DNA of 64,000 bases from an uncultured Thermomicrobiales bacterium (GTDB taxonomy: Bacteria; Chloroflexota; Chloroflexia; Thermomicrobiales; UBA6265). How positions within the stretch are numbered: the stretch's first letter is position 1; every line of letters starts with the position of its first letter. The stretch lies in assembly GCA_902806335.1 (NCBI GenBank), contig CADCWG010000086.1, forward strand, positions 1 through 64,000, given 5' to 3'. The translations under genes were made by a program, and so were the position numbers. Under the pieces are notes generated by a model. That model did no database searches and was not told the origin of the DNA. It saw only the letters and a list, made by a program, of their open reading frames with translations. This document shows, in pieces, positions 409 to 8,735 of the stretch.

Positions 409-517
409 GGTAGCGCGCGGGCCCATCGTCGTGGCGGTCCTAGGCCCGCGGGGTCGGGCACGTCGGGGAGGACCGCTGGGGACCTGCGCGGCGAGCGCCG
501 ACGAACAGGAGCGACCG

Positions 518-1669
518 ATGGCGGAGACGCGGAAGAAGCGGGGCCAGAACGAGGGCGGGGTCTACCAGCGCAAGGACGGGCGCTGGGAGGCGCAGCTGAC
601 GGTCCCCGCCGCAGACGGGGGCAGGGCGGGGCGCCGCAGCTTCTACGGCCGCACCAAGGCCGAGGCGGTCCGGAAGCTGCGGGACGCCGAGCGGGACATA
701 ACTCGCGGCCTTCCCGTCGCCGACGGCCGCCTCACGGTGGGCGCTTACCTGGACCGGTGGCTGGAGGACGCGGTCGGGCCGACGGTCGCGCCCAAGACCT
801 ATGCCTCCTACTCCGACACCGTGCGCGTCCACCTCACCCCGTTGCTCGGGAGGATCGTCCTCGCCAAGCTCGGCCCCGCCGACGTGCAACGCCTGCTCGC
901 CGCGAAGAGCGCCGCCGGGTTGTCGCCCACGACGGTGGGCTACATCAGGACCGTGCTGCGCATCGCCCTCGGGCGCGCCGAGAAGTGGGGTCTGGTGGCC
1001 CGCAACGCCGCCGCGCTCGCCGACGCGCCCCGGCGGGCGCGCAGCGAGGTACGGCCGCTGACGCCGGCCGAGGCTCGGCGCCTGCTGCTGGAGGTCGAGG
1101 GGGACCGCCTGGAGGCGCTGTACCGCGTCGCCGTCTCGCTCGGCCTACGCATGGGGGAGGCGCTCGGACTCCGGTGGGAGGACGTGGACCTCGACGCCGG
1201 CGAGCTGCGCGTCGAGCGCGCGCTGCAGCGCGTCGGCGGCCAGCTCACCCTGAAGGAGCCGAAGACCGAGAAGAGCCGGCGCACCCTGACGCTGCCGCCC
1301 GCCCTCGCGCGCTCCCTCCGGGCGCACCGCGTCCGCCAGCTGGAGGAGCGCATGGCGGCCGGCCCCCGCTGGGAGGAGCGGGGTCTCGTCTTCACTACGG
1401 CGAAGGGGACGCCCCTCGAGCCGAGCAACGTGCTCAAGCGGTTCAAGGCGCACCTGGCCGCGGCCGGTCTGCCGCCGCAGCGGTTCCACGACCTCCGGCA
1501 CTGCGCGGCGTCGCTGCTGCTGGCGCAGGGGGTGCCGGCGCGCGTCGTGATGGACGTGCTGGGCCACACCCAGATCAGCACCACGATGGACCTCTACGCC
1601 CACGTCATGCCGGCCGCGCATCGCGAGGCGGCGGCCCGCATGGAGGAAATCCTCGGCGAAACGGGGTAG
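518..1669 (+). CDS. Tyrosine recombinase / phage-type integrase
   Basis: The 383-residue protein is a site-specific tyrosine recombinase. It has an AP2-like arm-binding N-terminus (about 12-65, containing YQRKDGRWEAQL), a SAM-like core-binding domain (about 72-165) and a C-terminal catalytic domain. The catalytic set is visible: Arg211 in GLRMGEAL, a Lys near 249-252, His324-x-x-Arg327 in HDLRH, His350 in LGHT and nucleophile Tyr360 in LYAHV. I chose the ATG at 518, preceded by AGGAG at about 506; in-frame codons upstream to 431 look non-coding. It is the last gene before tRNA-Gln(CUG), whose 3' end faces it, as expected for an element integrated at that tRNA. The gene looks complete. Confidence 0.93.
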   Translation: MAETRKKRGQNEGGVYQRKDGRWEAQLTVPAADGGRAGRRSFYGRTKAEAVRKLRDAERDITRGLPVADGRLTVGAYLDRWLEDAVGPTVAPKTYASYSDTVRVHLTPLLGRIVLAKLGPADVQRLLAAKSAAGLSPTTVGYIRTVLRIALGRAEKWGLVARNAAALADAPRRARSEVRPLTPAEARRLLLEVEGDRLEALYRVAVSLGLRMGEALGLRWEDVDLDAGELRVERALQRVGGQLTLKEPKTEKSRRTLTLPPALARSLRAHRVRQLEERMAAGPRWEERGLVFTTAKGTPLEPSNVLKRFKAHLAAAGLPPQRFHDLRHCAASLLLAQGVPARVVMDVLGHTQISTTMDLYAHVMPAAHREAAARMEEILGETG

Positions 1670-5226: not shown

Positions 5227-5240
5227 GGAGGGACCGCCCG

Positions 5241-8200
5241 TTGGCCGAGTTCGCCCACCTCCACCTGCACACCGAGTTCTCGCTCCTCGACGGGATGGGG
5301 CGGATCGACGAGTACCTCACCCGCGCCAAGGAGACCGGCCTCCACCACCTGGCGGTGACCGACCACGGCGTGATGTACGCGGCGATGGACTGGTACAAGG
5401 CGGGCCGCAAGGCCGGTCTCCACCCGATCGTCGGGATGGAGGCCTACCTCGCCGAAGGCAGCGCCCGCGCCAAGGAGCGCAAGTCCTACCACCTGCTCCT
5501 CCTCGCCGAGAACGAGACCGGTTACCGCAACCTGCTCAAGCTGGCCACCAAGGCCAGCCTCGAGGGCTTCTATTACCGGCCCCGGATCGACCTCGAGTGG
5601 CTCGCCGAGCACAGTACCGGGATCATCGGCACCTCTGCCTGCCTGGGCGGTCCGGTCGCCAACAACTTCCTCCACGGCCGCCCGGATCTGGCGCGCGACT
5701 ACGCCGGCAAGCTCGCCGAGATCTTCGGCCCGGACCGGTTCTACATCGAGGTCCAGGACCACGGGATCAAGGAGCAGATCGAGACCAACCGGCAGCTGAT
5801 CCCGCTGGCCCGGGAGCTCGGGCTGCCGCTGGTGGCGACGAACGACGTCCACTACTGCAATCAGCAGGACCACTCCGCTCAGGACCTCCTGGTCTGCGTC
5901 CAGACCAACTCGACTCTCAGCGACCCGAAGCGGCTCAAGTCGGAGAGCGACCAGCTCTACCTGAAGGGGCCGGACGAGATGGCTCTCGTCTTCGGCGAAC
6001 TGCCGGAGGCCCTCTCGAATACGGTCCGCATCGCGGAGATGTGCGACCTCAACCTCGACTTCACCGGCTACCACATGCCGCACTTCGAGGTGCCGGCGGG
6101 GGAGACGCCCGAGAGCCACCTCGAGGCGCTCGTCCGGGCCGGATGTCGGCGCAAGTACGGGCACTACGGCGGGGCGGTCGGCGAGCGCCTCAGTTACGAG
6201 CTCGGCGTGATCGCCTCGATGGGGTTCACCAACTACTTCCTGGTCGTGTGGGATTTCGTCCGCTTCGCCAAGGAGCGGGGCATCCTCGTCGGGCCCGGCC
6301 GGGGGTCGGCGGCCGGCAGCATCGTCACCTACGCCCTCGACATCACGGCCCTCGACCCGCTCAAGTACGACCTGATCTTCGAGCGCTTCCTCAACCCGTC
6401 GCGCATCTCGATGCCCGACATCGACATCGACTTCGCCGACGACCGCCGCGCCGAGGTGATCGACTACGTCGTCAAGAAGTACGGCGACGACCGCGTCGCC
6501 CAGATCGTGACCTTCGGCACGATGGCCGCCAAAGCGTCGGTCCGCGACTGCGGCCGGGCGATGGGCCTCAGCTTCGCCGAGACCGACCGGGTCGCGAAGC
6601 TGATCCCGGTCGGCCCGGGGATCACGATCGAGTCGGCGATGGCCAAGGTGCCCGAGCTGCAGGCACTCTACGACGCCGACGGCGGGGTCCGGGAGCTGAT
6701 CGACGCCGCGCGCAAGGTCGAGGGGATCGCCCGCCACTCGTCCACCCACGCCGCCGGGGTGGTGATCTCGCGCGACCCGCTCGTCCAGCACGTGCCCCTC
6801 CAGCGCGCCGGCGGCAAGAGCGAGGGGGAAATCACCACCCAGTACCCCCAGGGGCAGCTCGAGGCGCTGGGGCTGCTCAAGATGGACTTTCTCGGGCTGA
6901 AGACCCTGACCGTGCTCGGCAAGGCGGTCGAGCTGATCAACGCCCGCGGGCACGACCTCACCATCGAGACGATCCCCCTCGACGACCCGAAGAGCTACGA
7001 GGTGCTCGGCAAGGGCGAGACGGTCGGCGTCTTCCAGCTAGAAGGCGGGATGACGACCCGGATGACGGTCGACGTCCAGCCGAACTCGTTCGAGGATCTG
7101 ATCGCGCTGATGGCGTTGATCCGCCCGGGCCCGATGGAGATGGCGCCCGACTACATCGCCCGCAAGCACGGCCGGACCGAGATCGAGTACATGCACCCGG
7201 ACATGGAGTCGATCCTCGCCGAGACCTACGGCGTGGCGCTCTACCAGGAGCAGGTGATCCGGATCGCCAACGTGCTCGCCGGCTTCTCGATGGCCGAGGG
7301 CGACGGCCTGCGGAAGGCGATGGGCAAGAAGCTGCCCGAGGAGATGGCCAAGTACCGCGACCGGTTCGTCGGTGGGTGCGTGGAGCACGGCCTGACCAAG
7401 CAGCTCGGCGGCGCGATCTTCGACATGATCGAGCGCTTCGCCGGCTACGGGTTCAACAAGGCCCACAGCGCCGCCTACGCCGTGATCGCCGCCCAGACCG
7501 CCTACCTGAAGGCCAACTTCCCGGTCGAGTTCATGGCGGCCGCCCTGTCGACCGACATCGGCGCCAGCGACAAGATCGTCTTCAACATCGCCGAGTGCCG
7601 ACGCGCCAAGATCCCCGTGCTCCCGCCCGACGTCAACGCGAGCGACCACGACTTCGGCGTCGAGGACCTCGGCGACGGCGGGACGGCGGTCCGGTTCGGC
7701 CTCGGCGCGGTCAAGAACGCGGGCGAGGCGGCCGTTCGGGCCCTGGTCGCCGCCCGGGCGGAGCTACCGGGCGGCCGCTTCGCGGACCTCGAGAGCTTCT
7801 GCGACGCGGTCGACTGGTCGGTGGTCAACAAGCGGACCGTCGAATGCCTGGCCCGCTGCGGCGCGCTCGACGGGTTCGGTCCCCGCTCCGCCGTGCTCGC
7901 CGCCCTCGACAACGCGATCGCCGCCGGGCAGCGCCGCCAGAAGGCCAGCGCGCGGGGCCAGATCGGGCTCTTCGACCTGGGCGGGGCAGCGCCGGCCGCC
8001 GCGTCGGGGCCGGTTGGGCTGCCGGAGGTGCCCCCCCTGCCGAGGAAGGACCTGCTGACCTGGGAGAAGGAGCTGCTCGGGCTCTACCTCAGCGACCACC
8101 CGCTCAACGACGTGTTCGGCGACGGGGTGCCGTCCGGACTGGCCCAGATCGTCGAACTCCCGCAGCGCACACCCGGCGAGAAGGTCAAAGTGGTCGGCAT

Positions 8201-8324
8201 GATCGCCGGCATCCGCCGCATCACGACCAAGACGAACCGCACCATGGCGATCATCGACCTCGAGGACCTGACCGGGAACATCGAGTTGGTCGCGTTCCCG
8301 GAGTGCTACGAGAGCCACGCCTAG
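5241..8324 (+). CDS. dnaE: DNA polymerase III subunit alpha, ended early by an in-frame TAG
   Basis: This is the replicative polymerase catalytic subunit. The PHP domain starts at once (HLHLHTEFSLLDG, residues 6-18), and the polymerase active-site acidic residues lie in PDIDIDF (Asp393, Asp395). GQIGLF at 906-911 matches the internal beta-clamp-binding motif. I chose the TTG at 5241 because GGAGGGA (5227-5233) lies seven bases upstream and homology starts there. The frame reaches a TAG at 8322-8324 inside the OB domain after 1027 codons, then stays open in the same frame to 8735 with clear DnaE C-terminal sequence; the uninterrupted length of 1164 residues is normal for the family. Changing one base (GAG or CAG to TAG) would explain it. 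It could be a sequencing error, a real truncation keeping polymerase and clamp motifs, or stop-codon readthrough. Confidence 0.92.
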   Translation: MAEFAHLHLHTEFSLLDGMGRIDEYLTRAKETGLHHLAVTDHGVMYAAMDWYKAGRKAGLHPIVGMEAYLAEGSARAKERKSYHLLLLAENETGYRNLLKLATKASLEGFYYRPRIDLEWLAEHSTGIIGTSACLGGPVANNFLHGRPDLARDYAGKLAEIFGPDRFYIEVQDHGIKEQIETNRQLIPLARELGLPLVATNDVHYCNQQDHSAQDLLVCVQTNSTLSDPKRLKSESDQLYLKGPDEMALVFGELPEALSNTVRIAEMCDLNLDFTGYHMPHFEVPAGETPESHLEALVRAGCRRKYGHYGGAVGERLSYELGVIASMGFTNYFLVVWDFVRFAKERGILVGPGRGSAAGSIVTYALDITALDPLKYDLIFERFLNPSRISMPDIDIDFADDRRAEVIDYVVKKYGDDRVAQIVTFGTMAAKASVRDCGRAMGLSFAETDRVAKLIPVGPGITIESAMAKVPELQALYDADGGVRELIDAARKVEGIARHSSTHAAGVVISRDPLVQHVPLQRAGGKSEGEITTQYPQGQLEALGLLKMDFLGLKTLTVLGKAVELINARGHDLTIETIPLDDPKSYEVLGKGETVGVFQLEGGMTTRMTVDVQPNSFEDLIALMALIRPGPMEMAPDYIARKHGRTEIEYMHPDMESILAETYGVALYQEQVIRIANVLAGFSMAEGDGLRKAMGKKLPEEMAKYRDRFVGGCVEHGLTKQLGGAIFDMIERFAGYGFNKAHSAAYAVIAAQTAYLKANFPVEFMAAALSTDIGASDKIVFNIAECRRAKIPVLPPDVNASDHDFGVEDLGDGGTAVRFGLGAVKNAGEAAVRALVAARAELPGGRFADLESFCDAVDWSVVNKRTVECLARCGALDGFGPRSAVLAALDNAIAAGQRRQKASARGQIGLFDLGGAAPAAASGPVGLPEVPPLPRKDLLTWEKELLGLYLSDHPLNDVFGDGVPSGLAQIVELPQRTPGEKVKVVGMIAGIRRITTKTNRTMAIIDLEDLTGNIELVAFPECYESHA

Positions 8325-8735
8325 CTCTGGCAGGTCGACGCGATCGTCGAGGTGGTCGCCAAGCTGGAGCGTCGGGGGGAGCAGCTCCAGCTGGTGTGCG
8401 AGTCGGCCACGACCGAGATCGCGTCCCTCGCCGCGCCGCCGAGGCCGCGGCGGGTGATCCACGTCCGGGTGCCCCGCTCGGCGGACGCCTGGGCCGATAT
8501 CCGCACGATGCAGCGGCTCGACGAGATCCTGCGCCACCACGAGGGCGACGACGACGTGGTGCTCCACGTTCCGGTCGGCACCGAGACGGTCTCGCTGCGG
8601 AGTCGGACCCGGCGCATCGAGTGGGGGGACGCCGCCCGCGCCGAGCTCGAAGCCCTCCTCGGCGCCGGCGCCGCGATGCTGGAGGACCCGGGGGTGGCCG
8701 TCGGCGAACCGCCGCACCTCCTCCTGGCTTCATAG
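8325..8735 (+). pseudogene. dnaE: Detached C-terminal part of DnaE (OB fold and tail)
   Basis: Starting immediately after the TAG and in the same frame, 136 codons read LWQVDAIVEVVAKLERR and onward. This is the second half of the OB-fold domain plus the DnaE C-terminal domain (RVIHVRVPRSADAW, VVLHVPVG). A GTG at 8352 could start a separate 127-residue protein, but no Shine-Dalgarno sequence precedes it. Codon use matches the upstream part, so any break is recent or artefactual. Confidence 0.75.

Follow-up and report, generated by a model that had tools for sequence, protein, structure and literature searches.

How should we understand an amber codon that interrupts the gene of the replicative DNA polymerase, when what follows it in the same frame still looks like the end of that gene? 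The question is raised by the dnaE gene of a Thermomicrobiales metagenome-assembled genome (MAG; G000), in the first 64 kb of a 94.9-kb contig (C86), a stretch that we call the window. There, the frame coding for DnaE1, the alpha subunit of DNA polymerase III, meets TAG in its last eighth and continues to a terminator of its own. Were this stop real, a free-living bacterium would either manage with a sole replicative polymerase that lacks its tau-binding end, or read UAG while also using UAG as a stop. The evidence collected here favours a different source, namely a weakness common in assembled metagenomes, where single wrong or minority-strain bases mimic broken essential genes. The MAG comprises 4.82 Mb in 332 contigs, with 72% GC, and is 92.6% complete and 2.2% contaminated.

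The reading frame and its domains

The initial annotation described a dnaE frame that opens at 5241, meets TAG at 8322 and goes on in phase to 8735, and both the reading frame and the alignments bear this out (Table 1). A GGAGG motif (5227-5231) lies upstream of the start codon, and 136 codons separate the interior TAG from the gene's own terminator, a TAG as well (8733-8735). The part that precedes the stop reaches 1331.5 bits with NCBIfam PRK06826 (cut-off 1260), and its Pfam matches are PHP, DNA_pol3_alpha, finger, HHH_6 and positions 1-40 of the 75 of the OB-fold model, the last being broken off by the TAG at position 40. The protein has all the domains of DnaE1 in their usual order (PHP, alpha, finger, HHH and OB), with a family-level score and 80% identity to its nearest relative; it differs by one in-frame TAG in the OB-fold domain, which splits off the C-terminal region, equivalent to the tau-binding domain, that should belong to a single open frame. 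The polymerase domains and a putative internal clamp motif, QIGLF, lie on the 5' side of the stop, as had been proposed, and the equivalent of the tau-binding C-terminus lies on its 3' side.

Searched by itself against Pfam, the 136-codon part beyond the stop gave no match. A run of this length would be open by chance with a probability of 0.13 at the given composition, which is weak evidence for a gene, so that the reality of the post-stop frame is carried by homology. Indeed, the whole frame aligns unbroken over the TAG with the DnaE chains 7pu7 and 2hpi, reaching their C-terminal parts, and the post-stop part is 53-58% identical to its three nearest relatives. These alignments confirm the earlier recognition of DnaE OB-fold and C-terminal sequence past the stop. 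The GC content by codon position after the TAG (0.81/0.48/0.94) is coding-like.

Table 1. Location of the interrupted dnaE gene in the window (plain numbers) and of further features in other contigs of the same genome
Feature	Position	Strand	Remarks
dnaE (DnaE1, Pol III alpha), pre-stop part	5241..8321	+	1027 codons, TTG start; NCBIfam PRK06826, Pfam domains
In-frame TAG, within the OB-fold domain	8322..8324	+	no stop there in 101 other aligned loci
Remaining dnaE frame: end of OB-fold and C-terminal (tau-binding-equivalent) domain	8325..8735	+	alignments with relatives, 7pu7 and 2hpi
DnaE2-type polymerase	C7:985-4842		PRK05672
ABC exporter	L176:12288-14159 (G000:C156)		two in-frame TAGs, L176:12567 and 12930; otherwise intact
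GNAT-like gene	L154:17881-18462 (G000:C289)	minus	single TGA at L154:18142
Hypothetical ORF, possible case	L267:4609-5469 (G000:C22)		TAG at L267:5134; coding-like on both sides; no family match
Thioredoxin-like gene	L276:4402-5178 (G000:C87)		in-frame TGA
tRNA-Sec	C135:20216-20309		anticodon TCA
SelB	C216:9507		above cut-off

A stop private to one assembly

The gene was compared with those of 40 relatives, from the family and the order, and with the strong dnaE matches that 118 other genomes of the class gave. In neither set does any dnaE have an interior stop within the aligned part, and about 110 of the alignments span the site. At the codon equivalent to 8322, the other loci have a sense codon in 100 cases out of 101 and a gap in the remaining one. 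This position is hypervariable, with 16 different residues among the 100 sense codons (E in 21, S in 14, D in 12, A in 7, and others), so that the identity of the residue there hardly matters. The dnaE gene of one genome (G014) had been flagged as containing one TAG, which we rejected as an interior stop, for it is the natural terminator of the gene. Two lesions of other kinds or places were also seen: dnaE of a relative, in a draft genome, is split by an isolated frame change near residue 863 (G002:C61:4366-7853), and that of a draft Paenibacillus sp. JCM 10914 (L074) has an interior stop at the equivalent of residue 991.

The stretch downstream of the stop tells us about the age of the change. 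Its product is 56.8, 57.6 and 53.4% identical to those of the three nearest relatives, which are themselves 59.2, 53.0 and 51.2% identical to one another, and its pN/pS is in the same range as that of intact relatives. We found no additional stop or frameshift in the 136 codons and no sign of the relaxed selection expected of a pseudogene. Because the post-stop part evolves as it does in intact relatives, the change is either very recent or an artefact; dnaE stayed intact until very recently, or is intact still.

The TAG lies in phase with dnaE and occurs in this assembly only, and the sequence beyond it has evolved as that of an intact gene would. We infer, with a probability of about 0.64, that a single base makes the difference in a DnaE1 gene that is otherwise intact and present in one copy, and that this isolated nonsense codon stems from an error of the assembly consensus or from the base of a minority strain. 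The working gene would then be free of the TAG: the dominant cells of the sample would carry a sense codon at 8322 and make an ordinary, full-length DnaE. Several features speak for an error: the stop is a singleton, it affects the single, essential DnaE1, the downstream sequence is like that of intact genes, lone stops have a low density in the genome, and the MAG is made of 332 contigs. Interrupted ORFs private to one species have been filtered out elsewhere as sequencing errors or pseudogenes (PMC1914089). The dnaE stop is an ordinary member of the kind excluded there, being specific to its species, with no relative showing a stop of the same type at the same place; it differs in that it sits in an essential gene, and this favours error over decay. 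A base error and a recent nonsense mutation were two of the three options that the initial annotation had listed without choosing, and both fit everything that we found.

A possible nonsense mutation without a backup

Second in likelihood, and in our opinion doubtful, comes a private and very recent nonsense mutation that would be real in the sampled population. DnaE would then be truncated after 1027 residues, with the loss of the end of the OB-fold and of the tau-binding-equivalent region, while the polymerase and PHP domains and the internal clamp motif would be kept; the strain would survive with a poorly coupled replisome, or be a transient variant. The position of the catalytic domains, all before the TAG, agrees with this, and purifying selection downstream is compatible with a change that is merely recent. 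In Escherichia coli, point mutations in the tau-binding C-terminus abolish tau binding while sparing polymerase activity, and the edited strains are viable, although less fit and with an increase in single-stranded gaps (PMC11869525); cells with a truncated enzyme might thus survive for a while. However, the loss of a domain exceeds a point mutation, and the region is kept in all other genomes of the class where it can be aligned.

It had also been suggested that the mutation could be tolerated because another DnaE or PolC exists. This holds weakly. A dnaE search of the genome found DnaE1 in single copy, a second C-family polymerase, which is a DnaE2-type error-prone enzyme (992.2 bits with PRK05672, cut-off 939), and no C-family polymerase beyond these two. 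The second enzyme passes the cut-off of no replicative equivalog. DnaE2 is described as non-essential for replication and as found almost exclusively where DnaE1 is the sole Pol III alpha; the alpha subunit that replicates the genome is essential, and DnaE2 is not known to substitute for DnaE1 (PMC12926913). A second replicative polymerase acting as a backup was rejected, since only the DnaE2-type enzyme was found.

Lone stops elsewhere in the genome

If assembly errors or minority bases account for the dnaE stop, how frequent are comparable stops in the rest of the MAG? Interior stops were scanned for in 1.61 Mb, about one third of the genome, comprising 377,399 codons in the chosen ORFs (1.13 Mb coding), with a procedure trained on GC by codon position that discriminates sense from antisense. 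A codon-usage scan devoid of this discrimination had yielded 34 candidates that were discarded, most of them antisense frames in this 72% GC genome. Apart from a selenoprotein discussed below and from neighbouring genes that share a frame, the scan yielded an ABC exporter, a GNAT-like gene and possibly one hypothetical ORF (Table 1). As random substitutions, these lone stops would fit a rate of wrong or mutated bases of about 1-2e-4 per base. Random nonsense changes in the codons of this genome would give TAG in 67% of cases, because GAG, CAG, TCG, TAC and TGG are common codons.

Two observations count against the error reading. Homology scans based on the proteins of relatives and on paralogues, which covered part of the sequence, saw no lesion comparable to that of dnaE. 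Furthermore, two codons that specify Gln in most orthologues are TAG in the exporter, which is more than one expects of independent rare errors: at a rate of 1-2e-4, two such lesions in one gene are unlikely to be independent. The exporter is not evolving faster than its orthologues. Its TAGs would be accounted for by ongoing loss of the gene, by a stretch that was badly assembled locally, or by amber suppression.

Is UAG decoded in this organism?

The last of these explanations extends to dnaE itself: some UAG codons would be read as an amino acid, perhaps glutamine, by a suppressor or near-cognate tRNA, and full-length DnaE would be made in spite of the stop. We deem this improbable. In its favour stand the two amber codons of the exporter at Gln positions, in a gene that is otherwise intact, and the presence of two identical tRNA-Gln(CUG) genes. 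Against it, TAG terminates 403 of the 874 long ORFs in the 1.61 Mb scanned, whereas full reassignment would make UAG a rare or absent terminator; TAG is an ordinary stop in this genome. Leaky termination, which an excess of backup stops would have revealed, was rejected as well, for these are no commoner near genes ended by TAG than near those ended by TGA.

The decoding machinery points the same way. The initial annotation had proposed a search for amber suppressor tRNAs, and a whole-genome search in which anticodons were read came back empty-handed, with no CUA among 44 full tRNAs. It should be noted that the 44 also lack tRNAs for Cys, Trp, Ile and Lys(UUU), so that a suppressor might belong to the genes missing from the MAG. 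The genome encodes two class I release factors, of which one carries the SPF motif of RF2, and pyrrolysyl-tRNA synthetase (PylS) stays below its cut-off. No relative has the dnaE stop, none of the 81 ABC ATPase domain matches found genome-wide contains an in-frame stop, and the lesion of the GNAT-like gene is a TGA, not a TAG. The exporter leaves a small probability, about one chance in twenty, for a natural reading of UAG, but the fact that almost half of the genes end in TAG weighs more. That the lineage reads a subset of its UAG codons, probably as Gln, although UAG ends nearly half its genes, so that both dnaE and the exporter would be expressed at full length, is very unlikely, and the TAG of dnaE most likely does not betray a novel decoding of the genetic code.

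Least credible of all is a programmed event, readthrough or reinitiation, that would yield both a DnaE with the tau-binding domain and one that lacks it, in the way that frameshifting gives dnaX its two products: the TAG does separate the polymerase from the tau-binding region, and an in-frame GTG occurs ten codons past it, but the stop is inside the OB-fold domain rather than between domains, it is conserved in no relative (0/118 genomes, 0/101 loci), the RNA that follows it is no more stably folded than shuffled sequences (z = -0.8, -0.7), and an Rfam search near the TAG gave no match. Programmed readthrough, the third option of the initial annotation, is thus unsupported, with a stop that is private, a site that is hypervariable, no structure beyond chance, neither CUA tRNA nor PylS, and TAG in use as a normal stop.

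As to the tRNA-Gln(CUG) genes, one (1806-1879) is located at the start of the contig, where a tyrosine integrase gene (window 431-1669) adjoins its 3' end, in an arrangement that resembles the end of an integrated element. The second, identical copy (G000:C308:310-383) has different flanks.

A recoded stop in the same genome

The scan that found the lone stops also found, in a thioredoxin-like gene, an in-frame TGA that illustrates what recoded stops look like and provides a useful contrast within the same genome. Like the UAG of dnaE, this UGA lies inside a conserved protein family; the former is unconserved, with no decoding machinery found, whereas the latter is conserved and accompanied by both tRNA-Sec (68.1 bits) and SelB (Table 1). 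The TGA, in the context FGSLT-stop-PYC, is kept in eight homologues (48-78% identity) and in a more distant ninth. With this codon read as Cys, the gene reaches 41.7 bits with T4_deiodinase (PF00837; cut-off 27), and the UGA is a truly recoded selenocysteine codon, in a selenoprotein of the T4_deiodinase/redoxin type.
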